Shown piece after piece: positions 3,218-51,393 of a stretch of 64,000 nt of DNA. Both the position numbers and the translations under genes were made by a program. Where the stretch lies: positions 3,288,264-3,352,263 of the forward strand of contig NZ_JAFN01000001.1 in the NCBI RefSeq assembly GCF_000526155.1, written 5' to 3'. The DNA is from Deferrisoma camini S3R1. GTDB lineage: Bacteria; Desulfobacterota; Deferrisomatia; Deferrisomatales; Deferrisomataceae. Positions within the stretch are counted from its first letter, which is position 1; the number at the start of each line of letters is the position of its first letter. The notes beneath the pieces are model-generated. The model saw only the letters and a list, made by a program, of their open reading frames with translations. It had not been told where the DNA came from and did no database searches.

Positions 3218-3290
<73 letters not shown>

Positions 3291-3294
<4 letters not shown>

Positions 3295-3700
3295 TTCGAA
3301 AGGAATCGCCGCTTCCGCAGGGGAGCGGCGTCGTCGTTTGGGCGGGCAGCGAAGCCGGGGGGAAGGGGCACGCTCGGAGGATGAGACCCCCCGATGGGGT
3401 TCGACGATTCCGCAGGAGAGCGGAATCGGACGATCCCGAAGGGATCGCCCGAAGGGCGAGGCTCAGGGAGGGGCCGAGTCCATCCCGGAGGGCGTGCCAT
3501 TCGAAAGGAATCGCCGTTTCCGCAGGGGAGCGGCGTCGTCGTTTGGGCGGGCAGCGAAGCCGGGGGGAAGGGGCACGCTCGGAGGGTGAGAACCCCCGAT
3601 GGGGTTCGACGATTCCGCAGGAGAGCGGAATCGGACGCGCCGAAGGCGCGCCCGAAGGGTGAGGCCCAAGGAGGGGCCGAGTCCATCCCGAAGGGCGGAG
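3291..3700. repeat. 205-bp tandem duplication starting at the tRNA-Arg 3' end
   Basis: Copy 1 spans 3291-3495 and copy 2 spans 3496-3700; both begin GCCATTCGAAAGGAATCGCCG and are nearly identical throughout. Each contains two hairpins: CGCTTCCGC/GCGGCG near the start and CGATTCCGC/GCGGAATCG in the middle. The second half of each copy carries short inverted pairs such as CGATCCC-GAA-GGGATCG, changed to CGCGCC-GAA-GGCGCG in copy 2 with pairing kept, which suggests selection for an RNA structure. No protein gene is credible here although several frames are open. Confidence 0.85.
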
Positions 3701-37719: not shown

Positions 37720-39165
37720 CTACCTTCTCCATGCCCCGGGGAAGAACAGCACGAACACCGTGAACAGCTCGAGCCGGCCGGCCAGCATGCAGAAGGTGAG
37801 CACGGCCTTGCCGGCCTGGGGCAGGTGGGCGTAGGTGTCGGTCGGGCCCACCCCCCCGAGCCCGGGCCCGATGTTGCCCACGCAGGCGATCACCGACGCC
37901 ACGGCCGTGACCGGGTCCACGCCGAGGGCGGCCATGGCCAGGGCGCCCCCGCCGACGGTCAGGAGGTAGAGGGCGAAGAACCCCAGCACCCCCTGGAGCA
38001 CCTCGGGGGGCACGGGCCGGCCGTCCAGCTTCACCAGCCGCACCCCCCGGGGATGGATGAGCGACCAGAGCTGGGCCCAGGCGTGCTTGACGATCAGCAC
38101 GACCCGGCTCACCTTCATGCCCCCGCCGGTGCTGCCGGCGCACCCCCCGATGAACATGAGCAGCACCAGGAGCACCTGCCCCACCACGGGCCAGGTCTCG
38201 TAGTCGGCCGTGCCGAACCCCGTGGTGGTCAGGATCGACACGGCCTGGAACGCGCTGTAGCGCAGGTTCTGCCAGAAGTTCGGGTAGGCGCGGGCCGTGT
38301 TGGAGACCATCAGCACGGCCACCGCGGCCAGGGTCAGCAGCCCGTAGGCCCGCAGCTCCTCGTTCCGGCGGATGCGGCGCCACCCGCCGGTCAGGGCGGC
38401 GTGGTGCAGGGCGAAGTTCACGCCGGCCAGAAACATGAACACCGTGATCACGGCGTCCACGTAGGCGCTGCCGAACCCGGCCACGCTGGCGTTGCGGGTG
38501 CTGAACCCGCCGGTGGCCATGGTGGCGAAGGCGTGGCACACCGCCTCGAACCAGTCGAGCCCCCCCAGCATCAGGAGCAGGGTCTCCACCGCGGTCAGGG
38601 CCACGTACACCCCCCACAGGAGCTTGGCCGTGTCCTGGATGCGCGGCCGGAGCCGGTCCGCGGTGGGGCCGGGCACCTCGGCCCGGAACATCTGCATGCC
38701 GCCGACCCCGAGCATGGGCAGGATGGCGAGCCCCAGCACGATGATGCCCATGCCGCCGAGCCAGTGGGTGGTGGCCCGCCATAGCAGCAGGCTCCGGGGC
38801 AGGGCCTCGATGTCGGTGAGCACGGTGGCCCCGGTGGTGGTGAACCCGGAGAGGGACTCGAACACCGCGTCCACCATGGTGGGCAGGGCGCCGTGGAGCC
38901 GGTAGGGCAGGGCGCCCACCAGCCCGAACAGGACCCAGCCCAGGGTGACCACGGCGAACCCCTCCCGGTGGGTGAGCTCGGCCGGGCCCCGCCGTCCCAG
39001 GGCCAGGAGCCCCCCTCCGAGGCCTGCCGAAGCGGCCAGGGCGGCGAGAAAGGTCGGGTGGGTCCCGTCGCCGTCGGCCAGCGAGAGGGCCAGCGGCACC
39101 AGCAGCACGGCGGTCAGGGCCAAGGCCAGGCCGCCCAGGACTCGGGCGAGGGCGAACAGGTTCAT
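37720..39165 (-). CDS. trkH: TrkH-type potassium transporter
   Basis: 481 residues of the Trk/Ktr K+ channel family, about ten membrane helices. Selectivity-filter-like loops occur at SLSGFTTTGATVL, ATMATGGFSTRN, SILTTTGFGTADYE and IACVGNIGPGLGGVG; GGCAGSTGGGMKVSR precedes the fourth unit. The start ATG 39165 overlaps the TrkA stop (ATGA), so the pore and its gating subunit are made together. The frame upstream of 39165 stays open through TrkA but is a shadow. Confidence 0.92.
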   Translation of the reverse strand: MNLFALARVLGGLALALTAVLLVPLALSLADGDGTHPTFLAALAASAGLGGGLLALGRRGPAELTHREGFAVVTLGWVLFGLVGALPYRLHGALPTMVDAVFESLSGFTTTGATVLTDIEALPRSLLLWRATTHWLGGMGIIVLGLAILPMLGVGGMQMFRAEVPGPTADRLRPRIQDTAKLLWGVYVALTAVETLLLMLGGLDWFEAVCHAFATMATGGFSTRNASVAGFGSAYVDAVITVFMFLAGVNFALHHAALTGGWRRIRRNEELRAYGLLTLAAVAVLMVSNTARAYPNFWQNLRYSAFQAVSILTTTGFGTADYETWPVVGQVLLVLLMFIGGCAGSTGGGMKVSRVVLIVKHAWAQLWSLIHPRGVRLVKLDGRPVPPEVLQGVLGFFALYLLTVGGGALAMAALGVDPVTAVASVIACVGNIGPGLGGVGPTDTYAHLPQAGKAVLTFCMLAGRLELFTVFVLFFPGAWRR

Positions 39166-40511
39166 GACGTGCCGAAGAAGTCTTCCACCGCCACCACCGC
39201 CTCGGGCAGGGCGAACACCACGATGCGGTCCCCGGGATCCAGGGTGGTGTCGCCGGTGGGGATGAACGCCTGGTCGCCCCGCAGGGCGGCGCCCACGATG
39301 GCGCCGTCGGGGAACGGGATCTCCCGCAGGGGTCGGCGGGCCCAGGCGAACGCCTCGGGGATGCGCAGCTCGAGCACCTCGGCCTGGTTCTCCTCCACGG
39401 TGGCCATGTTGAGCACCCCACCCCGGCGCACGTACTTGAGGATGGCGCTGGCCGTGGAGAGTCGGGGGCTGATGCAGGCGTCGATGCCCAGGCTCGGCAC
39501 CAGCCCCACGTAGGCCGGCCGGTCCACCACGCACAGGGCCCGGCGGGCGCCGTGGCGCTTGGCCAGCAGGGAGGCCAGGATGTTCTTCTCCTCGTTGGGG
39601 GTGGTGGCCACCACCACGTCGGCCTTGCCGATGCCCTCCGAAAGGAGCACGTCCACCTCGGTGATGTCCGCGTTGATCACGGTGGCCCGGGTGGCTCGGC
39701 GGGCGAGCTCCTCGCACCGGGCCCGGTTGGGCTCCACCAGGGTCACTTCGGCCCGGTTTTGCTCGAAGTGCTCGGCCACCCGCTGGCCCACCGCCCCGCC
39801 GCCGAACACGAAGATCCGCCGGGTCTGGCGCTTCTCCAGGCCGAACATGTAGCGCACCGCGGCCAGGTCCTCCCGCCGGAGCACCAGAAACACGTGGTCG
39901 TCGGGCTCCACCCGGTCGTCGCCCCGGGGGATCAAGGTGCGGCCGTGGCGGGTGATGGCGGCCACCACGAACGGGTACATGGTGCGCAGCTCCCCGATCT
40001 CGGCCAGGGTGAGGCCGGCCACCGGGCTGTCGGGGGTGATGGGGTACCCCACGAACAGGATCCGGCCCCCCGCGAACTCGGCCACCTCCACGGCGGCGGC
40101 GTGGCTGGCGATGTTGATCAGGTCCTGGGCCACGGCCTCCAGTGGGTTGATCAGGAGCTCGATCCCGAGCTTCTCGGCGTTGAGCACCGCGCCCCGGCCG
40201 GTGTACGCCACCGAGCGCACCCGGGCGATCTTCACCGGCACCCCGTACTCCTTGGCCAGGAGGCAGGCCACGAGGTTCACCTCGTCCACGTCGGTGACCG
40301 CGATGAACAGGCCGCACGCCCCGATGCCGGCCTCCTCCAGCACCCGGGCCTCGGCGCCGTTGCCCTCGAGGGCCATGACGTTCAGCCGCTCCTCCACGGA
40401 GCGCAGGGCCTGGCGGCTGTGCTCCACTACCACCACGTCGTGGCCCTCGAGGGCCAGGCGCTCGGCGGTGTGGAACCCCACCTCGCCCGCGCCCACCACG
40501 ATCACGCGCAC
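39162..40511 (-). CDS. trkA: TrkA potassium-transport regulator
   Basis: 449 residues in two RCK halves, each with a Rossmann nucleotide-binding fold (RVIVVGAGEVGFHTAERLAL; RIFVFGGGAVGQRVAEHFEQ) and a TrkA_C domain. It binds NAD(H)/ATP in the cytoplasm and gates TrkH. The GTG at 40511 is chosen: AGGAGG lies 6 bases before it and it gives the family N-terminus; the GTG at 40517 overlaps the SD. A 600-base repeat-rich leader precedes it. Confidence 0.92.
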   Translation of the reverse strand: MRVIVVGAGEVGFHTAERLALEGHDVVVVEHSRQALRSVEERLNVMALEGNGAEARVLEEAGIGACGLFIAVTDVDEVNLVACLLAKEYGVPVKIARVRSVAYTGRGAVLNAEKLGIELLINPLEAVAQDLINIASHAAAVEVAEFAGGRILFVGYPITPDSPVAGLTLAEIGELRTMYPFVVAAITRHGRTLIPRGDDRVEPDDHVFLVLRREDLAAVRYMFGLEKRQTRRIFVFGGGAVGQRVAEHFEQNRAEVTLVEPNRARCEELARRATRATVINADITEVDVLLSEGIGKADVVVATTPNEEKNILASLLAKRHGARRALCVVDRPAYVGLVPSLGIDACISPRLSTASAILKYVRRGGVLNMATVEENQAEVLELRIPEAFAWARRPLREIPFPDGAIVGAALRGDQAFIPTGDTTLDPGDRIVVFALPEAVVAVEDFFGTS

Positions 40512-40550
40512 CCACACCTCCTTGCGGCGGTTTGGACCTTCGGCATATCA

Positions 40551-40618
40551 GGGGCCAGAACTCAGAGGACAGTGGACGGGGAGAACCCCTGGGACCCAAC
40601 CCTGTCCTCTGAATTCTG
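40551..40618. repeat. Long inverted-repeat element in the trkA leader
   Basis: CAGAACTCAGAGGACAG (40556-40572) pairs with CTGTCCTCTGAATTCTG (40602-40618), 17 bp with one mismatch, across a 29-base loop. A diverged relative with the same order of motifs (GGGGCCAGAATTCAG, GTGGACAGGGAGAAC, CTGAATTC) is found at 40806-40935. On the minus strand it would be in the untranslated leader of trkA. Confidence 0.75.
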
Positions 40619-40800
40619 TCTTCTTCCCAGTAGCTTCGGTCGTTGGTCGTTGGTCGTCGGTCGTTGGTCTGGGCCTTCGGCCCGCTAGAAAGCTGGCAGG
40701 CTAGGATGCTAGAAGGCTTGAAACCCTCCGTGATCTCCCAGCATTCCAAGCATGACCACGCCTCTTTGACGCCACCTCACGGTCTCGGGGGGCATGGGTT
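40619..40800 (-). repeat. Modular leader repeat with heptamer and octamer arrays (trkA copy)
   Basis: On the minus strand, modules in order: CATGCCCCCCGAGACCGTGA, GTGGTCATGCTTGGAA, a period-8 GCTRGRNN region (40686-40718), GCGGGCCGAAGGCCC, then period-7 units CGACCAA/CGACCGA and CGAAGCTACTGGGAAG (40623). The same modules occur in the same order at 47699-47865, ahead of the 15-heme cytochrome gene. The arrays differ in length and spelling between copies. Confidence 0.8.
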
Positions 40801-40805
40801 TCAGG

Positions 40806-40935
40806 GGCCAGAATTCAGAAGTCGGTGGACAGGGAGAACGCTCTTCGGTGCCCCGAGAGGATCCCCCCGGGAACCCAAACTACTTTTCGGGACTTCCTGT
40901 CTCCTGTCCGCTGAATTCCGGTTCCTGAAACCCAT
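40806..40935. repeat. Second copy of the GAATTC inverted-repeat element
   Basis: Starts GGGGCCAGAATTCAG and ends CTGAATTCCGGTTCC, with inner GTGGACAGGGAGAAC and GGGAACCCAAACT. It shares motif order with 40551-40618 but is longer and the stem is less perfect. From 40936 to 41114 I see no further structure apart from the CheR leader. Confidence 0.65.
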
Positions 40936-41114
40936 GCCCTGCCGGCTGCAACGGCCCGGGCCTGCCCGAACCGACTAACAGTCTGCCGAGGATCCCAGGA
41001 TGCCCCAGGGCTCCCGGTCGTCGCAACCCGGGGGTCAAGCCGGGGCCCGTGCGGGCCGATGGGGAAGGGGCCCCCAAGACCCAGAAACCGTGGACGCCCC
41101 GGAGGAATCCCCGG

Positions 41115-41963
41115 ATGGAGCCCCGATCGCCCCCGATCCTGGATGCCGCCTCGTTTCGGGCGGTGGCGGAGTTGGTGTTCGAGCACACCGGCATCCGCCT
41201 GGCGCCGGGCAAGGAGTACTTCGTGGTGTCCCGGCTGGGGAAGCTTCTGCGGGACACCGGATGCTCCCGGTGGGAGGACCTGCCGGACGCGATCCTACGG
41301 GCCGGCACCCGGGCCCGGGAGGGGTTGGTCCAGGCGGTGCTCACGCTGGAGACCTCGTTCTTCCGGGACGGCCGGCCGTTCCAGGCCCTGCACGAGGTCC
41401 TCGTTCCGGAGCTGGCCCGGGGCGGGCCCGTACCCTACCCCCTGCGGATTTGGAGCGCGGGGTGCAGCACGGGGCAAGAGCCCTACAGCATCGTCATGTG
41501 CCTGGCAGACCTCTTGGACCGGGGCCGGATCCGGTTGGACCTGCTGGCCACGGACCTGAGCCCCGTGGCTCTGGAGCGGGCCCGCCAGGGGGTGTACGAC
41601 CCGTGGGAGCTGGAGCGGGGCCTCGACGAAGGGCACCGGGCGCGGTATTTTGAGCCCCTCGACCGCGGCCGGGCCCGCATCCGGGCCGACGTGCGGCGCT
41701 GGGTCCGGTTCCGGCGGCACAACCTGGTCGCCGGGCCCCCGCCGGAGACCGGGTTCGACGTGGTGTTCTGCCGCAACGTGGGCATCTACTTCGGCCCGGA
41801 GACCCTGGAGCGGCTCCACCGCAACCTGACGGCCGCGCTCCGGCCGGGTGGGGTCCTGGTGCTGGGGGCCGGGGAGACCGTGTCGCCGGAGCTCACGGGG
41901 TTCCGCCCGGAGTACCCCTGCCGGACCCTGGTGTACCGGTACACAGCGGAGGACCTCCCATGA
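41115..41963 (+). CDS. CheR-type protein-glutamate methyltransferase
   Basis: 282 residues. An N-terminal CheR helical domain (FRAVAELVFEHTGIRLAPGK) and a SAM-binding domain with RIWSAGCSTGQEPYSIVM, DLLATDLSPVALERARQGVY and FDVVFCRNVGIYF. It would methylate glutamates of chemoreceptors. No che genes are near; the next gene, overlapping by ATGA, is a PilZ protein, so the pair may connect chemosensory input to c-di-GMP. ATG 41115 has GGAGG 9 bases upstream. Confidence 0.9.
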   Translation: MEPRSPPILDAASFRAVAELVFEHTGIRLAPGKEYFVVSRLGKLLRDTGCSRWEDLPDAILRAGTRAREGLVQAVLTLETSFFRDGRPFQALHEVLVPELARGGPVPYPLRIWSAGCSTGQEPYSIVMCLADLLDRGRIRLDLLATDLSPVALERARQGVYDPWELERGLDEGHRARYFEPLDRGRARIRADVRRWVRFRRHNLVAGPPPETGFDVVFCRNVGIYFGPETLERLHRNLTAALRPGGVLVLGAGETVSPELTGFRPEYPCRTLVYRYTAEDLP

Positions 41964-42319
41964 AGCGTTCCCCACCGCCCCGGCCCCCGGCCGACCGGCG
42001 GGCCCACCCCAGGGTTCCCCTGGTCGTGAGGGAGACCCGCTGCATCGCGGGCATGGAGGTGTTCTTCGGGTACGCCACCAACGTGAGCCGGGGGGGGCTG
42101 TTCATCAACTCCCCGCGGGTGCGGCGGCCCGGCGAGGAGTTCGAGATCCGTTTCGGGCTGCCCGGCCTCGACCGGGAGTTCTCGTGCCGGGCCCGGGTGG
42201 TGTGGGCCCGGCCCTACCGCCACGACTCCCCCCATCCTCCGGGGTACGGCCTGCAGTTCCTGGACCTGCCCGAGGAGGACGCCCGCCGGATCGACGAGTG
42301 GGTGAGGTCACAGGAATAG
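41960..42319 (+). CDS. PilZ domain protein
   Basis: 119 residues. The c-di-GMP-binding signature is present as RRAHPRVPL followed by NVSRGGLFI (RxxxR and N/DxSxxG). Single-domain PilZ proteins carry c-di-GMP signals to motility or surface machinery. Overlaps CheR by ATGA and converges on SerA, with a 12-base overlap of the 3' ends. Confidence 0.88.
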   Translation: MKRSPPPRPPADRRAHPRVPLVVRETRCIAGMEVFFGYATNVSRGGLFINSPRVRRPGEEFEIRFGLPGLDREFSCRARVVWARPYRHDSPHPPGYGLQFLDLPEEDARRIDEWVRSQE

Positions 42320-43900
42320 CTGCCGCACCTCCAGGATGTCGGGCAGGCCCGCCAGGGCCTCGAGTACCTCGGGGCCGGCCGTGCCGTCGATGTTCACCAT
42401 GCTGATCGCGGTGCCGCCGGGCGCGGATCGGCCGTTGTACATGCCGGCGATGTTCACCCCCTGATCCCCCAGGCAGGTGCCGATCTTCCCGATGACCCCG
42501 GGCACGTCCCGGTTGTAGATCAGGATCAGGGTGCCCCGGGGCAGGGCGTCGAGCCGGTAGTCATTGAACCGCACCAGCCGGGGCTCGTGCTTGCCGAACA
42601 GGGTGCCCTCGACCCGGTGCTCCCCCGAGGGGCCGGCCACGGTGATCGCCACCAGGTCGCTGAAGTCCCCGGCCTCGGCCGTGACCCGGGTGGAGACCCG
42701 CACGCCCCGCTCCCGGGCCACGGCCGGGGCGTTCACTAGGTTCACCCGGGTCTCCAGGGCCGGGGAGAGCAGCCCCACCAGGGCGGCGGCCGTCACCAGG
42801 TCGGCCCCCTGGCCCGAGGCCTGGCCCTGCACCGCCACCTCCACCCGGTCCACGGGTTCGGGCACGGCCTGGGCCAGGAACAGCCCCAGCCTGCGGGCCA
42901 GGTCCAGGTACGGACCGAGCCGGGTCAGGGTCTCGGAGGGCACGCTGGGGGCGTTCAGCGCGTTGGGCGCCACGCCGGTGCGCAGGAACGAGATCACGTT
43001 CTCGGCCACCTCCAGGGCGACGCTCTCCTGGGCCTCGACCGTGGAGGCGCCCAGGTGGGGGGTGACCACCACCTCGTCCCGGCCGTAGAGGGACTTCGGG
43101 GGCGGCGGCTCCTGCTCGAACACGTCCAGGGCGGCGGCCGACACCCGGCCCCCGGCGATGGCCCGGTCCAGGGCGTCCTCGTCCACGATGCCCCCCCGGG
43201 CGCAGTTGACCACGATCACCCCGGGCTTGACCTTGGCAAACGCCTCGTCTCCCAACAGCCCCCGGGTGTCGGGCGTGAGCGGGGTGTGCACGGTGATCGC
43301 GTCCGCCTCGGCGAGGAGCCGGTCCAGATCCACCTTCTCCACCCCGAGCTGGGCCGCCCGCTCCTCGGTCAGATAGGGATCGTAGGCGACCACCCGCATC
43401 CGGATGCCCCGGGCCAGCTCGGCCACCACCGAGCCGATCCGGCCCACGCCCACGATCCCCAGGGTCTTGCCCCGCAGCTCCCGGCCCACGAACCGCTTCT
43501 TCTCCCAACGGCCCGCCTTCAGGGCCGCGCAGGCCTGGGGCACCTTGCGGGCCGCGCTCATCAGGAGGGTCAGGGCGTGCTCGGCCGTGGTGACCACGTT
43601 GCCGCCCGGGGCGTTCACCACCGCCACCCCCAGGCGGGTGGCCGCGTCCATGTCGATGTTGTCGACCCCGATGCCGGCCCGACCCACCACCCGTAGGTCG
43701 GTTCCGGCCTCGAGCACCTCCCGGGTCACCCGGACGTTGCTCCGCACGATCACGGCGTGGAACCCGGGCACGGCCCGCGCCAGGGTCTGGGGATCGTTGA
43801 TGCTCTCGACCCGGACCATGAAGCCGGGTTCCTCGGTGAACCGGTCCAGGGCCGCCTGGCCCAACGAGCAGGTCACGAGCACGCGGAAGGTGTCGGGCAT
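42308..43900 (-). CDS. serA: D-3-phosphoglycerate dehydrogenase
   Basis: 530 residues, the long form. NAD-binding GIVGVGRIGSVVAELARG, catalytic-region blocks VVNCARGGIVDEDAL and VVTPHLGASTVEAQESVA, an intervening ASB-like domain (about 320-450), and a C-terminal ACT domain (LILIYNRDVPGVIGKIGTCL) for serine feedback. It catalyses the first step of serine synthesis. ATG 43900 follows AAGGAGGC. Confidence 0.95.
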   Translation of the reverse strand: MPDTFRVLVTCSLGQAALDRFTEEPGFMVRVESINDPQTLARAVPGFHAVIVRSNVRVTREVLEAGTDLRVVGRAGIGVDNIDMDAATRLGVAVVNAPGGNVVTTAEHALTLLMSAARKVPQACAALKAGRWEKKRFVGRELRGKTLGIVGVGRIGSVVAELARGIRMRVVAYDPYLTEERAAQLGVEKVDLDRLLAEADAITVHTPLTPDTRGLLGDEAFAKVKPGVIVVNCARGGIVDEDALDRAIAGGRVSAAALDVFEQEPPPPKSLYGRDEVVVTPHLGASTVEAQESVALEVAENVISFLRTGVAPNALNAPSVPSETLTRLGPYLDLARRLGLFLAQAVPEPVDRVEVAVQGQASGQGADLVTAAALVGLLSPALETRVNLVNAPAVARERGVRVSTRVTAEAGDFSDLVAITVAGPSGEHRVEGTLFGKHEPRLVRFNDYRLDALPRGTLILIYNRDVPGVIGKIGTCLGDQGVNIAGMYNGRSAPGGTAISMVNIDGTAGPEVLEALAGLPDILEVRQLFL

Positions 43901-43924
43901 GGAGCGCCTCCTTGGTGTTCAGCA

Positions 43925-44262
43925 GGGTTCACGGCGAGTTGCGTTCAAAACCATTGGCCCCCTGAGAGAGCGGGGCAAGGGGCCTGGTGGAGCGCCGGGC
44001 GTGGCTCCGACAGTCGTTGCCTCCGGCACTCAGCCGATGCCCGCCCGGCTGCAATCCGAGAAATACGGTGTCAACGTTCGTTTTTCCGGCGTTCATGGAG
44101 CCTCCGGGCTGAGTGCTGGAGGCAACGTGAGTCGGATGCTGCACTCACGCACGGCCGGAACCAGGCCCCTTGCCCCGCCCCGGAGGCGCTCTGTTTGAAC
44201 GCAATTCGGAATGAAACCCTTGCCCCGTCCCACGAGAGTTCTCGGTTTGAACGCAACGCGGT
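43925..44262. repeat. Repeat-filled intergenic region between SerA and pseudouridine synthase
   Basis: No gene. From left to right: GAGTTGCGTTCAAA (43927), GGGGCAAGGGGCCTGGTGGA, module M2 on the minus strand (43984-44033), module M1 on the minus strand (44137-44182), then two minus-strand copies of TTGCGTTCAAAC (44192-44213, 44230-44268). The last runs into the stop codon of the pseudouridine synthase. Some short frames are open but look non-coding. Confidence 0.75.
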
Positions 44263-44263
44263 A

Positions 44264-45325
44264 TCAGGTGGCCCGAAGGGCGGCCAGGCCGTCCACACCG
44301 GACGGGAGGCCGCCGAACGCGGCCAGACTGGCCACCAGATCCTCGGGCAAGGGGTCGGTGAGGTCAAGGGGGCCGCCCCCGGCGGGGTGGCGGAGCCGCA
44401 CCCGATAGGCGTGGAGGAACATCCGGCCCAGGCCGGCCACGGCTCGCAGGTGCTCGTTGAACTCCGGGTCGCCGTAGCGCCGGTCGAGGGCCAGGGGATG
44501 GCCGGCCAGGGCCAGATGGCGGCGGATCTGGTGGGTCCGGCCGGTCACCAGGTCCACCTCGAGCAAGACCACTTGCAGGGGCTGGGGGTACCGGGCCAGG
44601 GTGCGGTACCGGGTCAGGGCCTCCTGGAGCACCGGCCGAGTTCGGGCATGGCCCGGAGGGTGCCGGCCCCGGTCGCGGGAGTCCGGGTGGCGGGGCAGGG
44701 GGATCCGGATCTCCCCCTCGGCCGGCTCGGGCCAGCCGGCCACGAGGGTGAGGTACGCCTTCCCGATCCGGCCCCTCTGGAGGTTCCGGCCCAGGCGGCG
44801 CTGGGCCGGGCGGGTCTTGGCCACCAGCACGATCCCGGAGGTCTCGAGGTCCAGGCGGTTGGCCAGGGCCGGCTGGAACGGGTCCGCCGGGGTCACGCCC
44901 AGGTAGGCGCGGACCCGCTCGATCAGGGTATCGCCGGCGTGGCCCAGGGCGGGGTGGCTCGCGCATCCCGGCGGCTTCGACACCACGAGCAGGTGGGGGT
45001 CCTCCCTCACCACCCGGAACGGCCCCGCCGGCGTGTCCACCTGCACGTGCTCCCGGTCGGCCGGGGGGACGCTAGGCCGGGTCGGCCGCACGAGCTCCAC
45101 CGACACGGTGTCCCCCGCGTTCAGCCGGTCCAGGGCCCGGCAGCGCCGGGCGTTCCGCCGGATCTCGCCCGATCGGGCCTTGCGGAACACCTCGCGCGGG
45201 TCCAGGTCGGGAAACGCCGTGCGCACGGCGTCGTACACGGTCTTTCCGGCCCAGGCGGTGCCGATCCGCAGGTGCCGGACGACCCGCTCCAGCTCCGCCT
45301 CGGGTTCGGCCTCGGCCAGGGCCAC
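44264..45325 (-). CDS. RluA-family pseudouridine synthase
   Basis: 353 residues. An N-terminal S4-like region and the catalytic motif LANRLDLETSGIVLVAKT, in which the aspartate is the nucleophile; VDLVTGRTHQIRRHLALAGHPL and RMFLHAYRVRL follow as expected. It modifies rRNA or tRNA uridines; the target is not clear. GTG 45325 lies one base after the stop of the small Cys-rich gene, so the two are translationally coupled. Codon usage matches the core genome. Confidence 0.88.
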   Translation of the reverse strand: MALAEAEPEAELERVVRHLRIGTAWAGKTVYDAVRTAFPDLDPREVFRKARSGEIRRNARRCRALDRLNAGDTVSVELVRPTRPSVPPADREHVQVDTPAGPFRVVREDPHLLVVSKPPGCASHPALGHAGDTLIERVRAYLGVTPADPFQPALANRLDLETSGIVLVAKTRPAQRRLGRNLQRGRIGKAYLTLVAGWPEPAEGEIRIPLPRHPDSRDRGRHPPGHARTRPVLQEALTRYRTLARYPQPLQVVLLEVDLVTGRTHQIRRHLALAGHPLALDRRYGDPEFNEHLRAVAGLGRMFLHAYRVRLRHPAGGGPLDLTDPLPEDLVASLAAFGGLPSGVDGLAALRAT

Positions 45326-45326
45326 C

Positions 45327-45710
45327 TCAGCACCCTCCCAGGCCGGGGCGGGGCCCTGCGAACAGCTCGTCGCCCCGCACCGCCCTGCGGTCCACCAGGG
45401 CCTCCATCACCAGCAAGGCGCCGCAGGGGGAGGCCCCTTCCCGCTTGTCGGGTCGCCGGAGCGGGCAGCGGTAGGGGTAGAGCTCGCACCGGATGCACAC
45501 GGCCCGCAGCAGCAGGGCGTCGTGCTGGTTGCGCCAGCGCAGGGGCGCGCCCCGGAGCCGCTCCACCACCCGGAAGGCCGGTGACCCGGGGGCGACCCGG
45601 TCCCGGAGCCAGGCGAACGCGGCGCACTTCTGCCGCTCCTCCCAGGGCTTGAACAGCCGGCAGTGCTCGGCGCAGACGGCCCGTTCCAACACTTCTTCGT
45701 GGGTGCGCAT
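45327..45710 (-). CDS. Small Cys-rich protein of unknown function
   Basis: 127 residues; I do not recognise the family. Two cysteine groups, CAEHC near residue 13 and CIRCELYPYRC near 72, could bind zinc or an Fe-S cluster. Arg-rich. It is joined to the pseudouridine synthase by a one-base gap, and the coding pattern is consistent across the whole length, so the gene is probably real and may assist RNA modification. Confidence 0.6.
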   Translation of the reverse strand: MRTHEEVLERAVCAEHCRLFKPWEERQKCAAFAWLRDRVAPGSPAFRVVERLRGAPLRWRNQHDALLLRAVCIRCELYPYRCPLRRPDKREGASPCGALLVMEALVDRRAVRGDELFAGPRPGLGGC

Positions 45711-45899
45711 GGGTGGCCTCTCCAGGGCTCCGCAGGAAGGTTCAGGGTACCAATCCGGGCCCTCGGGTCAAGCGCAAAACGATGTGCGCTTGTGCGGCAC
45801 GGACGAGGGATGGCACACTGCCCCCCCTCCTCACGGCAACCCGGCCCGGCCCCTGCGGGGCCGGGCAACAGGGGAAGGTAACTGGCGGGGGCGGTTGCC

Positions 45900-46402
45900 G
45901 GCGGTGGGGCATGGGGCCTGCTTCCGGCCGGCCAGAGACTAGAAACTAGGGAAATTCCGGGTAGCCTGGCCCGTTAGGCGGGCGCTCCAGCAGACCCATG
46001 CCCCCCTGGGCTTTGGCGCGGTTCGAGAGCCGCCCGGCCGCCTAGCTGCCTAGCGGGCCGAAGGCCCCAGACCGACGACCAACGACCGACAACCGAAGTT
46101 ACTGGGAAGCCTCGGCAGGCCCCTGGGAGGCCCTGCAACGTGCGGCGTAACAGGACGCCCTCCCGCGGCGGCGGGGGACCTGTTTCCGGCCGTGCGTGAG
46201 TGCAGCATCCGACTTACGCTGCATCCGGCACTCAGCCCGGAGGCCGAAGCGTTTCAGCGGATCTCATGGCGAGGCGGCCGGGAAGCGAAGCCGACCGGGC
46301 ACGCGGTGGCTGTGAGTGCCGGATGCAGCGACTGTCGGAGCCACGCGCCCTGGGGGCCAGGAGACCGACGACCGACGGCCGTAGACCGAAGTTACTGGGA
46401 AG
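45900..46402. repeat. Composite repeat region upstream of the TPR gene
   Basis: No gene between 45711 and 46413. Contents: partial M1 (45914-45930), AGAGACTAGAAACTAG (45934-45949, again at 49435), a period-8 GCTRGRNN array on the minus strand (46036-46053), heptamer array B (46051-46109, GACCGAC/GACCAAC, ending CGAAGTTACTGGGAAG), M1 (46186-46212), M2 (46312-46352) and heptamer array C (46355-46402), which ends 12 bases before the TPR start. Confidence 0.8.
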
Positions 46403-46413
46403 GGGGCGGAGCG

Positions 46414-47385
46414 TTGACTCGGTGGTTGGGGCTCATCGCGGGAATGTGGGCGGCCGTGGCGATGGCGGCCGACCCCTACGGCACGGGGGTGGAGGCGTTT
46501 CGGCGGGGGGATCTGGCGGGGGCGCTGGAGGCGTTCCGGTCCGCCGCCCGGGACGCCCCCGACAACCTTGCAGTGACGTTCGCCCTGGCCCAGACCTGCC
46601 AGGCCTTGTTCGAGCGCACGGGCCTGTACTACCAGGAGGGCCGGGACGCCTACGACCGGGTGATCCGGGGGCTGGACCCCCGCACGCCCCCCGACAGCCC
46701 GTTTCAGATGGCCCGCCTGTTCCTGGGCACCCTGCTGGTGCGTGGGGGGGAGTATGATCGGGCGGTGGAGGTGCTGCAGGGGTTCCTCGAGGCCAAGCCG
46801 GACTACTGGGCCCGGGAGGAGGTGTGGAACACCCTGGGCGTGGCCCACTACTACCGCAACGACTACCGGGAGGCGGTGCGGGCGTTCGAGCGCGCCCTGA
46901 AGGTCGACCCGGAGTTCGGCCCGGCCCGGTTCAACCTGCGCAGCGTGTTCACCCGGCTGTCGCTGTTCGACATCGCCATGGCGAACCGGCGGGCGGGCCG
47001 GCTGAGCCTGGCCCTGGGCGACCTGGACCGGCTGCTGCGGCTCGCCCCCCGGTTCCATGAGGCCCGGCTGCAGAAGGCATTGGTCCTGCGGGACCTGGAC
47101 CGACCGGACGAGGCCCTGGCCGAGGCCCGGCGGGCCCTCTCCGGGGATCCCCCGCCCCGGGTGGCGTTCGAGCTCAACGATCTGGTGGGCGACCTGCTGG
47201 CGGCCCGGGGCGATCGGGCCGGGGCGGTGGCCGCCTACCGGCGGTGCCTCAGGATCTTTCCCGGCTACGTACAGGTGGTGGAGAAGATCGATCGCCTGGA
47301 ACGCCGGGAGGGCGGGGAGGAGCCCCCGGCGGCCGCGGCGCCGCCGGCCCGGACGGCCACGCCGGTGGCCGAGTTTCCCATGTGA
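46414..47385 (+). CDS. Exported TPR protein
   Basis: 323 residues from TTG 46414, chosen because a signal peptide (TRWLGLIAGMWAAVAMA) begins there and GGGGGCGGAG lies just upstream; the longer frame is repeat DNA. About six TPR units follow (GVEAFRRGDLAGALEAFRSA, LGVAHYYRNDYREAVRAFER, GRLSLALGDLDRLLRLAP). It ends with a Pro/Ala-rich tail. TPR proteins act as scaffolds. Its neighbour is a 15-heme cytochrome, so it may help assemble or hold that protein. Confidence 0.82.
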   Translation: MTRWLGLIAGMWAAVAMAADPYGTGVEAFRRGDLAGALEAFRSAARDAPDNLAVTFALAQTCQALFERTGLYYQEGRDAYDRVIRGLDPRTPPDSPFQMARLFLGTLLVRGGEYDRAVEVLQGFLEAKPDYWAREEVWNTLGVAHYYRNDYREAVRAFERALKVDPEFGPARFNLRSVFTRLSLFDIAMANRRAGRLSLALGDLDRLLRLAPRFHEARLQKALVLRDLDRPDEALAEARRALSGDPPPRVAFELNDLVGDLLAARGDRAGAVAAYRRCLRIFPGYVQVVEKIDRLERREGGEEPPAAAAPPARTATPVAEFPM

Positions 47386-47400
47386 GCTCTGGGAGACTGC

Positions 47401-47865
47401 GCGGGCCGAAGGCCCCAGACCAACGACCGACGTTACTGGGAAGTCTCTCAGGCCCCTGCGGAGCCGGGCACCGGGGGTTGGTCCGGGGCGTTGCCGCGAG
47501 GGGGCAAGGGGCCTGGTTCCGGCCGTGCGTGAGTGCAGTATCCGGCTCACGCTGCATCCGGCGCCCAGCCCGGGTTGCAACAAAGGTTCAATGGGGGATC
47601 GATCAGCGCGAACGTTTTCAGGGTCCCTGGGGAAGGCGAGCATCGGCTGGGCACCGGATGCAGCGACTGTAGGAGCCACGCCCGGCGCTCCACCAGACCC
47701 CATGCCCCCCGAGACCGTGAGGTGACGCCAAAGGGGCGTGGTCATGCTTGGAACGCTTGGAAAGCAGTGAGGTTTTCCAGCCTCCTAGCCTCCCATCGTC
47801 CTAGCATCCTAGCGGGCCGAAGGCCCCAGACCAACGACTGACGACCAACGACCGAAGTTATTGAA
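47401..47865 (+). repeat. Composite repeat region with heptamer/octamer modules ahead of the 15-heme cytochrome
   Basis: Contents: heptamer array D (47401-47443), M1 (47508-47545), M2 (47651-47703), and a full modular element 47699-47865: CATGCCCCCCGAGACCGTGA, GTGGTCATGCTTGGAA, period-8 array (47777-47812 on the minus strand), GCGGGCCGAAGGCCCC, heptamer array E with CGAAGTTATTGAAG. It ends 14 bases before the start codon of the next gene. No gene in the 490 bases. Confidence 0.82.
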
Positions 47866-47878
47866 GGGGGGTATACGC

Positions 47879-49306
47879 GTGGGGGTGTTGGCCCGGGTTA
47901 TGGGGGTGGCGGTGATCGTGTTGGGGTGGGCGGGCCGCGCGCCGGCAGGGGGGCTGCCGCCGCCGGCCCCGCCCCACGACGGGGCCGTGTGCGAGGATTG
48001 CCACGGCGCCGAGCCGACGGAGCCGGTGGACTGCGGCCGGTGCCACGGCCCGGGGGCGAACCTGCATCCGGACGGGATGGTGCCGCCCCGCCCCCTCCCC
48101 TCGGAGTTCCCCCTGGAGGGTGGGCGGGTGACGTGCCGGTCGTGTCACCGGCTCCACGGCCCCGCAGGGCCCCACGCCCTGCGGGGGTTCGGGCGCCCCG
48201 GGGTCCGCAGGCTGTCGGACTTCTGCGCCCTGTGCCACGGCGAGGGCCTGGCCCGCACCAACCCCCACCGGGCCGATGCCGGGGAGAACCGGTGTGCCTT
48301 CTGCCACGCCTCGGTCCGGGTGGACTCGGTGCTGGCGGGGGGCCGGCCCGAGGCCCGGGCCGCAGCGAACCGGCTGTGCGACTTCTGCCACGACGTGCGG
48401 GCCAGGAACCACCCCCGCAACATCGACCCCGTGCTCGACCTGCCGGACGAGCTGCCCCGGGGGCCCGGGGGCGGGATCACCTGCGTCACGTGCCACGACC
48501 CCCACGGATCGAGCCGGTTCACCCATTACCTGCGGGAGGCCTACGGCCTGAGGTTCGAGCGGGGCCTGCAGGACGACCCCCACCGGGACGACAGGTATGC
48601 GTGCCGGGCGTGTCACGTCGAGCCGGCGCCCGAGCGGATCACACCGGAGCGCCACGACCTGCGGTTCCAGGGGGACACGATCCTCCTGTGCGTGTCGTGC
48701 CACGTGTCGGCCCGGAGCCACCACCCGGTGGGGGTGCCGCTGCCGCCGGACATGGCGGCCCGGCTGGAGCGGGCCGGGCCGCTGCCCTTGGACCCCCAGG
48801 GGAGGACCACCTGCACCACCTGCCACACGAACCACTGCGACACCGGCGCCCAGCGCATGGGGGTGCGGCGGTACGACCCGAAGCGGTTCCGGTTGGACCT
48901 GTGTTGGGGTTGCCACGAGAAGGAGAGGTTCGCGGCCACGGATCCCCACCGCAAGACCGTGGGCGACTCCCAGGAGGGGTGCGTGTTCTGCCACGACCGG
49001 CCGCCGGTCAAGGGGTTGGAGCGGGCCGAGGACCTGTATTTCGTGAGCCAGGTCAAGATGATCTGCCTGCGGTGCCACGAGGACCTGTCGGACCAGGACG
49101 TGAGCCACATGGGCAAGACCCCGCCCCCCCCGATGCGCGAGCGGCTCGAGGCGGCGGGTCGGGAGCGGTCGATCGAGTTCCCCCTGGCGCGGGACGGAAC
49201 CCTGACCTGCACCACCTGCCACAACGCCCACTTCTCGGCCAAGGACGACCGGCACAAGACCCGGCTGCCCAGCCGGGACATGTGCGCCCTGTGCCATGCC
49301 CGATGA
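47879..49306 (+). CDS. Fifteen-haem c-type cytochrome
   Basis: 475 residues from GTG 47879, which is preceded by AAGGGGGG; an in-frame TTG at 47861 lies in the repeat. Signal peptide ending near APA-G. Fifteen CXXCH motifs: CEDCH, CGRCH, CRSCH, CALCH, CAFCH, CDFCH, CVTCH, CRACH, CVSCH, CTTCH, CWGCH, CVFCH, CLRCH, CTTCH and CALCH. One haem per 32 residues. No membrane segment after the signal, so it is periplasmic or outer surface. High haem density suggests an electron wire for metal or electrode-like acceptors. I do not recognise a characterised relative. Confidence 0.9.
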   Translation: MGVLARVMGVAVIVLGWAGRAPAGGLPPPAPPHDGAVCEDCHGAEPTEPVDCGRCHGPGANLHPDGMVPPRPLPSEFPLEGGRVTCRSCHRLHGPAGPHALRGFGRPGVRRLSDFCALCHGEGLARTNPHRADAGENRCAFCHASVRVDSVLAGGRPEARAAANRLCDFCHDVRARNHPRNIDPVLDLPDELPRGPGGGITCVTCHDPHGSSRFTHYLREAYGLRFERGLQDDPHRDDRYACRACHVEPAPERITPERHDLRFQGDTILLCVSCHVSARSHHPVGVPLPPDMAARLERAGPLPLDPQGRTTCTTCHTNHCDTGAQRMGVRRYDPKRFRLDLCWGCHEKERFAATDPHRKTVGDSQEGCVFCHDRPPVKGLERAEDLYFVSQVKMICLRCHEDLSDQDVSHMGKTPPPPMRERLEAAGRERSIEFPLARDGTLTCTTCHNAHFSAKDDRHKTRLPSRDMCALCHAR

Positions 49307-49473: not shown

Positions 49474-51393
49474 TTGGGAACCGGATCGCCCCCCACCCCT
49501 AACCCCTTCGAGATCCTGCGGCAGGTGTTCGGCTACCCCGGGTTCCGCGGGCAGCAGGAGGCCGTGGTGGGCCACGTGGTGGAGGGGGGCGACGCCCTGG
49601 TGGTCATGCCCACCGGCGCGGGCAAGAGCCTGTGCTACCAGATCCCGGCCCTGGCCCGGCCGGGGGTGGGGGTGGTGGTGTCGCCCCTGATCGCCCTGAT
49701 GAAAGACCAGGTGGACGCCCTGGTCCAGCTCGGGGTGCGGGCCGCTGCGCTCAACTCGTCCCTGGATCCGGCCGAGGCCCGGCGGGTGGAGGAGGCCCTG
49801 GCCCGGGGGGAGCTGGACCTGGTGTACGTGGCGCCCGAGCGGTGCCTGACGCCCCGGTTCCTGGAGCTGCTGTCCCGGGTGCGGGTGGCGCTCTTTGCCA
49901 TCGACGAGGCCCACTGCGTGAGCCAGTGGGGGCACGACTTCCGGCCCGACTACCTGGGGCTGTCGATCCTGGCCGAGCGGTTTCCCGGGGTTCCGAGAAT
50001 GGCCCTCACCGCCACGGCCGACGCGCCCACCCGCTCCGACATCGTCGAAAGGCTGGCGCTGGGCCGGGCCCGAGTGTTCGTCTCCGGGTTCGACCGGCCC
50101 AACATCCGGTACCGGGTGGTGTACAAGGAGCGGCCGAGGCAGCAGCTGGCCCGGTTCCTGGAGGGGCACCGGGGCGAGGCCGGCATCGTGTACTGCCTGT
50201 CGAGAAAGCGGGTCGAGGCAACGGCCGCCTGGCTGCGGGAGCAGGGGTGGGATGCCCTGCCCTACCACGCAGGCCTGGACCCTGCCGTGCGCCACGCCCA
50301 CCAGGAACGGTTCCTGCGGGACGAGGGGGTGATCGTGGTGGCCACCGTGGCGTTCGGCATGGGCATCGACAAGCCCGACGTGCGGTTCGTGGCCCACCTG
50401 GACCCCCCGAAGAGCCTGGAGGCGTACTACCAGGAGACGGGCCGGGCCGGTCGGGACGGGCTGCCGGCCGAGGCCTGGATGGCCTACGGCATGGGAGACA
50501 TCGCGGCCCTGGCGTGGCTGCTGGAGGGCTCCGGCGCGGACGAGGCCCACCGCCGGGTGGAGCGCCGCAAGCTCGAGGCCCTGTTCGGGTACTGCGAGAC
50601 CGCCGAGTGCCGGCGCCGGGTGCTGTTGGGGTACTTCGGCGAGCGCCTCGCCGCGGACTGCGGCAACTGCGACACCTGCTTGGAGCCGGTGGAGACGTGG
50701 GACGCCACGGTGGAGGCCCAGAAGGCCCTCTCGTGTGTGTTCCGGACCGGGCAGCGGTTCGGGGTGGGCCACCTGGTGGACGTGCTGCGGGGCCGCGACA
50801 CCCCCAAGGTGCGGGGGTGGGGGCACCACCGGGTCAGCACCTTCGGGATCGGGGAGGACCTGGACGCCCGCACCTGGCGCAGCGTGTTCCGGCAGCTGGC
50901 CGCGGCCGGCATGATCCAGGCCGACCCCGACGGCCACGGGGCCCTGCGGCTCACGCCCCGGGCCCGGCCGGTGCTCCGGGGCGAGGAGCGGGTGCGGCTG
51001 CGGCGCGACCCCGCCGGCCGGAGGACGGCCCGAACGCAGGTCCCTGCGGCCGAGCTCGGGGGAGCGGACGAGGCCCTGTTCCAGCGGCTGCGGGCCTGGC
51101 GCCTGGAGACGGCCCGGGCCCAGGGCGTGCCCCCCTACGTGATCTTCCACGACGCCACCCTCCGGGAGGTGGCCCGGGCCCGCCCCCGGACCCTTGAGGA
51201 GCTGGCGGCCGTGCCCGGGCTGGGCCGGGCCAAGCTGGCCCGGTACGGGGCCGCCCTGCTCGGGATCGTGACGGAGGCGGCCGTGGACCGGGAGGAAGAA
51301 GGAGGCCCCCTGCAGCGCCCCGTTGGACCCCCGACCGAGGACCGAGGACCGTCCGACCGACGACCGAAGTTCCCCCCGAGGAGCCCTCCGTGA
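49474..51393 (+). CDS. recQ: ATP-dependent DNA helicase RecQ
   Basis: 639 residues from TTG 49474 (GGGAGG upstream). Helicase motifs: MPTGAGKS (Walker A), [15 protein letters not shown] (motif II), [11 protein letters not shown] (III), [12 protein letters not shown] (VI). Zinc region with CETAEC and CGNCDTC, winged helix, and an HRDC domain (about 530-600, [17 protein letters not shown]). RecQ unwinds DNA in repair and recombination. The last 22 residues ([16 protein letters not shown] and on) are encoded by an intergenic repeat module rather than by conserved RecQ sequence, and its stop overlaps the next start as GTGA. Confidence 0.93.
51331..51372 (+). repeat. Heptamer array inside the RecQ 3' end
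   Basis: CGACCGAG, GACCGAG, GACCGTC, CGACCGAC and GACCGAAGTT form a period-7 array related to arrays B to E, here within the coding sequence of RecQ and directly upstream of the uracil-DNA glycosylase start at 51390. A change in unit number would alter the reading frame. Confidence 0.7.

Follow-up and report, generated by a model that had tools for sequence, protein, structure and literature searches.

Within a stretch of 64,000 nucleotides from Deferrisoma camini S3R1 (contig NZ_JAFN01000001.1, positions 3,288,264 to 3,352,263; hereafter the window, numbered from its first letter), a gene for TrkA on the minus strand and a gene for a multihaem cytochrome on the plus strand are each preceded by the same sequence modules in the same order. 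An earlier note, made from the letters alone, had read the two regions as a mobile or copied regulatory leader shared by the two genes. Our analysis shows that they belong to a family of repeats which is restricted to the genus, high in copy number, non-coding and located in intergenic gaps. The words mobile and copied are borne out by hundreds of copies, and by presence or absence and module swaps between sister species; the regulatory leader shared by the two genes is not supported.

Results

Order of the modules

Twelve consensus sequences were mapped back to the genome to define the slots of the element, which follow one fixed order: the start module S0, a cargo (B, T1, T2 or T3), D1 or D2, the hairpin E, the array F and finally GAAGTTACNNGGAAG. 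Same-strand steps between different neighbouring modules obey this order in 545 of 627 cases, and in 22 of the 82 remaining steps a new start comes after a tail or hairpin, as a tandem join. Full elements measure about 300-450 bp, the median over 26 full copies being 328 bp. S0 has the structure GGAAG-CCCC..CAGGCCCCTGCGGGGCC..GGTAAC(T/G)TTCGTTGGTC, starts directly after GGAAG or a variant of it and contains GGTAACGTTCGTTGGTC, the inverse of GACCAACGACCGAAGTTAC in the tail; as putative terminal inverted repeats, GTAACTTTCGTTGGTC of S0 and the tail GACCAACGACCGAAGTTAC are inverted to each other, but the former sits some 40 bp in from the left start. The cargoes T1, T2 and T3 are palindromic, and the alternative to them in the same slot is an ACTAGAG array, B. 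The D modules bear a period-8 CCTAGC array, E is the hairpin GGGCC-GAA-GGCCC, F is a period-7 GACCNAC array, and the element terminates in GAAGTTAC-NN-GGAAG. Several new elements take their start within the GGAAG with which an older copy ends. The ends are fixed and the interior modules variable, as in repeats of the BOX type. Stop codons are abundant on both strands of B and D, which carry CTAG words, while the other modules are near background, so that a general role as a stop-codon barrier is ruled out.

A second shell with the ends TACCAAGTTGC.../...GCAACTTGGTA holds the same T2 cargo (L204 near 1754, i.e. genome 3014871-3015156, and L194 near 6926), and hence the cargo is common to different shells. 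Arrays of other 7- or 8-bp words (CGTGAATCGTAAATCG, GGACGTTAGGACG, GGTGACGGGTGACGG, ATCTGTGTTCATCTGTG) occur in many gaps, for example at genome positions 1128608, 1156756 and 1665319, and are often arranged as inverted left and right arms.

At trkA the element runs from 40939 to 40623 on the minus strand, and at the cytochrome gene from 47440 to 47867 on the plus strand, and the modules named in the earlier note are there as exact matches. The ordered modules described in the earlier note are real, but the element had been drawn too short, as the trkA copy reaches back to 40939 and the cytochrome copy begins at 47440. In both copies the period-8 CCTAGC array lies 3' of GTGGTCATGCTTGGAA and a period-7 GACCAAC/GACCGAC array follows the hairpin. 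The features are as follows.

39162-40517, minus strand: open reading frame of TrkA (two TrkA_N, TrkA_C domains; Pfam PF02254, 1.7e-46)
40548-40586, minus strand: second, truncated T3 piece between element end and trkA start, 89.7% to the T3 consensus
40623-40669, minus strand: F period-7 array, with the element end GACCGAAGCTACTGGGAAG at 40623-40641
40671-40685, minus strand: E hairpin GCGGGCCGAAGGCCC, exact
40692-40788, minus strand: D2 slot (CCGAGACCGTGAGGTG...GTGGTCATGCTTGGAA...period-8 CCTAGC array), 87.6% to the D2 consensus
40744-40759, minus strand: GTGGTCATGCTTGGAA, exact match to 47738-47753
40777-40796, minus strand: CATGCCCCCCGAGACCGTGA, exact match to 47701-47720
40789-40939, minus strand: T3 cargo (heptad TG-rich inverted arrays inside GGGGCATGGGG...CCCCATGCCCC), 90.7% to the T3 consensus
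47440-47476, plus strand: S0 start module, 81.6% to the S0 consensus
47501-47708, plus strand: T2 cargo, 94.2% to the T2 consensus
47701-47720, plus strand: CATGCCCCCCGAGACCGTGA
47709-47805, plus strand: D2 slot with period-8 array, 92.8% to the D2 consensus
47738-47753, plus strand: GTGGTCATGCTTGGAA
47812-47826, plus strand: E hairpin GCGGGCCGAAGGCCC, exact
47829-47867, plus strand: F period-7 array, with the end GACCGAAGTTATTGAAGG at 47850-47867
47861-49306, plus strand: multihaem cytochrome gene, 15 CxxCH motifs in the reading-frame translation

Because the truncated T3 piece intervenes, some 110 bp separate the end of the trkA copy from its gene's start codon; the cytochrome copy ends about 12 bp upstream of the predicted GTG start at 47879. 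S0 of the cytochrome copy starts within the GGGAAG of a preceding element, which makes it a tandem insertion.

Abundance and distribution

Exact copies of the hairpin GCGGGCCGAAGGCCC number 193 in the 4.24-Mb genome and the reversed pattern has none, which excludes chance and agrees with the earlier remark that this is not random intergenic sequence. Two congeneric genomes hold 138 and 177 exact copies; among 36 other relatives there is one copy in one genome of the same family, two in one distant genome and none in the rest. Counts of the end pattern GACCNACGACCGAAGTTAC are 60, 39 and 48 for the three congeners, and nine further genomes of the class lack it. A longer end pattern was found in 30 stretches of a genome collection of 84,980 species, 27 of them in the two sister assemblies and three, taken for chance, as single matches in unrelated bacteria. 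Since the copies occur in three independent assemblies, an assembly artefact is unlikely. Neither the viral contigs of IMG/VR nor the plasmids of PLSDB contain a match to the element, so that a phage or plasmid as carrier has no support.

The counts of gaps and modules given here rest on stretches amounting to 2.85 of 4.24 Mb (67% of the genome), with genes called by a codon-usage script (2479 genes) instead of a standard caller. The stretches between 1.74 and 2.93 Mb were mostly picked because hairpin copies occur in them, which inflates densities somewhat, while orientation counts are presumably unaffected. The 67% contain 1392 gaps of 40 bp or more, 499 of which have at least one module, and repeats with at least five matches cover 32% of the intergenic bases in such gaps.

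Position and orientation

Nearly all hairpins (149 of 152) are intergenic. Of those in co-directional gaps, 87 point toward the downstream start and 16 the opposite way (two-sided binomial p = 5e-13), the corresponding numbers for tails are 76 and 16, and convergent gaps contain few hairpin copies; the direction toward a gene start that had been noticed for the two copies in the window is thus a bias of the whole family. The strand of the copies tracks the genes in both GC-skew classes, by which a replication-strand or chi-like bias is ruled out.

The distance to the start codon is also far from random. Of the 132 tails, 52 have a facing start codon 8-25 bp downstream, where randomly placed sites within those gaps give 4.0 (sd 1.9), and 61% of tails are away from start codons. 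The usual junction is GAAGTTAC-NTGGAAGGAG-nnnnn-ATG, in which the tail abuts or forms the Shine-Dalgarno sequence. As in the known heptamer arrays of the TAACTGA type, forward-oriented arrays are found directly before start codons.

Comparison with sister species

Sister loci were chosen for carrying the element and are not a random sample of gaps; their anchor alignments are mostly 90-97% identical. The comparison comprises 48 orthologous gaps in which one genome or more has a module: the modules agree in 17 of them, differ in 19 and are absent from one genome in 12. Presence or absence of the element as a unit, as is known for miniature inverted-repeat transposable elements (MITEs), was seen at L045, L193 and L209. 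At L045, about 374 bp are cleanly inserted in the sister G001, at GGGAAGGGAGG, between two genes which in our genome are separated by 4 bp: the empty site reads GGCTGCGGGGAAGGGAGGTG and the filled one GGCCGCAGGGAAG-insert-GGGAAGGGAGGTG. In this single filled/empty pair, GGGAAG flanks the insert on both sides and is present once in the empty site, which is a Shine-Dalgarno site. Full copies in reverse orientation were found at L193 and L212, and at L192 and L200 both ends are kept and the interior has been replaced in place.

The trkA gap itself varies in the same manner, as derived from match coordinates and not from the letters. G001 keeps the tail and the gene at 98% and has 282 bp in place of an interior of about 327 bp; the other sister, G002, has 91 bp where our genome has about 338 bp, so that the interior is mostly missing. 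D2 and E are at trkA in neither sister. For the cytochrome gene there is no close sister match, the best having 44% protein identity.

A deletion of 258 bp in our genome relative to G001 was observed inside a reading frame (L210 3280-3539 versus genome 996564), and it ends in short direct repeats GCC(G/A)TGGCC.

Downstream genes and RNA signals

There are 34 gaps in which D2 together with E or F faces the start of unrelated genes. Ten downstream proteins were scanned with Pfam and have no common theme, FtsH, S-adenosylmethionine synthetase (MetK), phosphoglycerate kinase (PGK), a thiamine-diphosphate enzyme and TrkA being among them; an SdhC-like gene also faces modules. Rfam gave only one chance-level match in 40300-48100, outside the element, and no promoter-like site or element-linked terminator was found. 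At trkA, RNA folding is hardly stronger than in shuffled sequences (z-score -0.94); at the cytochrome gene the signal is modest (-1.97). A regulatory leader shared by the two genes is thus not supported, given these RNA-level results, the unrelated housekeeping genes that the modules precede and the replaced or mostly missing interiors at trkA in the sisters.

Further copies in the window

The related pieces reported before the gene for a tetratricopeptide repeat (TPR) protein (46363-46402; predicted start at 46444) and at the RecQ/SMUG boundary (51333-51371) are present, the former as part of a tandem pair.

46010-46109, plus strand: first element of the TPR gap, with D1 at 46010-46054, E at 46053-46067 and F at 46070-46109 with the end GAAGTTACTGGGAAG
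46106-46402, plus strand: second element, in tandem, with S0 at 46106-46140, T2 pieces at 46175-46240 and 46319-46346, and F with the end at 46363-46402
47401-47443, plus strand: modules in the cytochrome gap directly 3' of the TPR gene, with E at 47401-47415 and F at 47418-47443 with the end GACGTTACTGGGAAG
51333-51371, plus strand: F array alone, overlapping the end of the RecQ frame, with the end GACCGAAGTTCCCCCCGAGG at 51362-51381

Elsewhere in the window, a 205-bp unit is present in two tandem copies at 3285-3697, with 93% matches.

Separate mobile elements

Two mobile elements with ends of their own were met within the mosaic. A transposase gene of 425 aa with the ends TAATTCTACTTTGTCAGAT, assigned to the IS701-like type by sequence reading, lies within the mosaic at genome 3501869-3503146; it has four further copies and is absent from G002 at this place. 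Apart from this insertion, no autonomous copy with a transposase was found among the gene-bearing intervals between start-side and end-side modules in the 67% of the genome covered. The other is a separate MITE, T4, inserted into an S0 module at genome 3505609-3505986 (compared with L206 5363-5745), with the ends TGTTCCGTTTCGC.../...GGAAACGCTACA and a 4-bp GTAG duplication; the sister has an empty GTAG site.

Discussion

A probable mobile mosaic repeat

With a probability of about 0.72, the two presumed leaders belong to a mobile mosaic repeat of MITE/BOX-like type that is non-autonomous, non-coding, specific to the genus and high in copy number. We favour a spreading repeat over a switch of two genes because there are hundreds of copies in one order, whose interiors are often replaced between sisters. 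For its mode of spread we infer the following steps. Insertion would be strand-specific at the purine motif GGAAG, often the Shine-Dalgarno sequence of a gene, and a transposase acting in trans would move the element. Interiors may be exchanged in place by recombination between copies, by which the slot order would be kept. Copies whose tail lies at the Shine-Dalgarno sequence and which read into the gene would be preferentially retained by selection, the presumed cause of the orientation bias, as the GGAAG of the tail is proposed to leave or supply a working ribosome-binding site; a putative translational role of the tail is possible.

Several observations weigh against the mobile repeat so described. 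In module-free co-directional gaps GGAAG shows no strand bias (229 sense versus 256 antisense), so that its availability is ruled out as the whole cause of the orientation: site preference alone is insufficient, and preferential retention or true Shine-Dalgarno targeting would be needed too. Some insertions new in a sister are reversed or upstream of a promoter (L193, L212). Beyond GGAAG, the left and right flanks of the 26 full copies match no better than shuffled pairs, which gives no support to a longer target-site duplication, and a target-site duplication is not established statistically. As to the mobiliser, no transposase gene was found inside any copy and no copy with a candidate mobiliser among the gene-bearing intervals between start-side and end-side modules, in surveys of mobiliser and copies that cover 67% of the genome. 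There are 12 matches to Y1 transposases, and none of the five inspected is bounded by the element, which tells against a REP/BIME (repetitive extragenic palindrome/bacterial interspersed mosaic element) driven by a REP-associated tyrosine transposase.

Another explanation is a functional cassette of the 5'-untranslated region (5'-UTR), spread adaptively over the genome, whose F array and hairpin would bind a protein or structure the RNA in mRNA and so tune translation. It would account for tails that point at starts and lie at Shine-Dalgarno sequences far above chance, and translational regulation has been proposed for TAACTGA arrays that are also just upstream of starts (MacGregor 2015, PMC4679880). 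However, at orthologous genes including trkA the interiors are replaced or missing, the downstream genes have no common function, Rfam gives no match, the folding signal is weak and most tails are away from start codons, and we therefore regard it as unlikely. A reading as interchangeable genome-wide 5'-UTR cassettes, which target Shine-Dalgarno sequences in the reading direction and keep their ends while interiors are swapped in slot order, so that many genes share one rapidly recombining pool of leaders, we hold to be quite unlikely.

Independent expansions of simple repeats, i.e. heptamer and octamer arrays made by polymerase slippage and then copied by gene conversion with no transposition, are improbable. 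Most modules are indeed arrays of 7- or 8-bp words, many gaps have other such arrays, and Mrazek et al., as cited in PMC4679880, name heptanucleotide units as the most frequent category among long simple repeats in most genomes; slippage does not agree, however, with precise presence or absence of the whole element and a common start and end (L045, L193, the 26 full copies), nor with the dispersal of the non-array modules T1, T2 and S0 in many copies. A specific leader to which a shared regulator binds, and which would co-regulate trkA and the gene of the 15-haem cytochrome, is extremely improbable: both copies do have the D2 variant, with a match of about 170 bp, but the copy number tells against it, as do the diverse genes facing the 34 gaps that hold D2 with E or F and the sister comparison, in which trkA lacks D2 and E and the nearest cytochrome is only 44% identical.

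Relation to known systems

The present family unites traits of the known systems and adds to them slot order with in-place replacement. The mycobacterial interspersed repetitive units (MIRUs) are, like it, gene-oriented repeats in operon gaps at translation starts; they differ in being short units at stop/start overlaps that are not known to have a slot structure.

Marine Beggiatoaceae have TAACTGA heptamer arrays that are the closest published parallel for position and are likewise oriented arrays in gaps near starts: they are mostly forward, lie several nucleotides from start codons at the expected ribosome-binding site and show no functional theme downstream (MacGregor 2015, PMC4679880). 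Those arrays are plain and replace the Shine-Dalgarno sequence (PMC4679880), whereas the Deferrisoma array is one slot of a composite and is followed by a Shine-Dalgarno-like GGAAG. For structure, BOX of Streptococcus pneumoniae is the closest, being a composite non-coding gap repeat with fixed ends and variable interior modules; however, BOX ends resemble an insertion sequence in the same genome (PMC3049150), whereas no partner insertion sequence was found for the present family, which also differs in its alternative modules per slot (T1/T2/T3/B and D1/D2) and its tail at start codons. With MITEs and BIMEs/REPs (PMC2229807, PMC2817692), which make up the general class, it shares short length, lack of coding capacity, high copy number, palindromes, mutually inverted ends and presence or absence in relatives; it is unlike them in that a duplication beyond GGAAG has no support, no transposase could be assigned, the inspected Y1 genes are unflanked and the slots are ordered instead of alternating palindromes. 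The GGGACCG heptanucleotide elements of Geobacter metallireducens (49 copies), compared by description only, are also GC-rich tandem GACCG-type heptamers of a metal-reducing bacterium, but they occur within genes too and have four repeats (PMC2700814). We thus describe the family as MITE/BOX-like and do not file it as a MITE, since it has some MITE features while its transposase link and its duplication are only putative.

Implications

Among the common small repeats of bacteria this family is unusual in its strict slot order, its alternatives for each slot, the in-place replacement between sisters and the tail at start codons. It also calls for caution, as two matching upstream regions are a poor basis for calling gene-specific leaders. 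If the Shine-Dalgarno targeting is true, insertion would rewrite the leaders of genes without destroying their translation, and a parasite could in this way remodel many 5'-UTRs.

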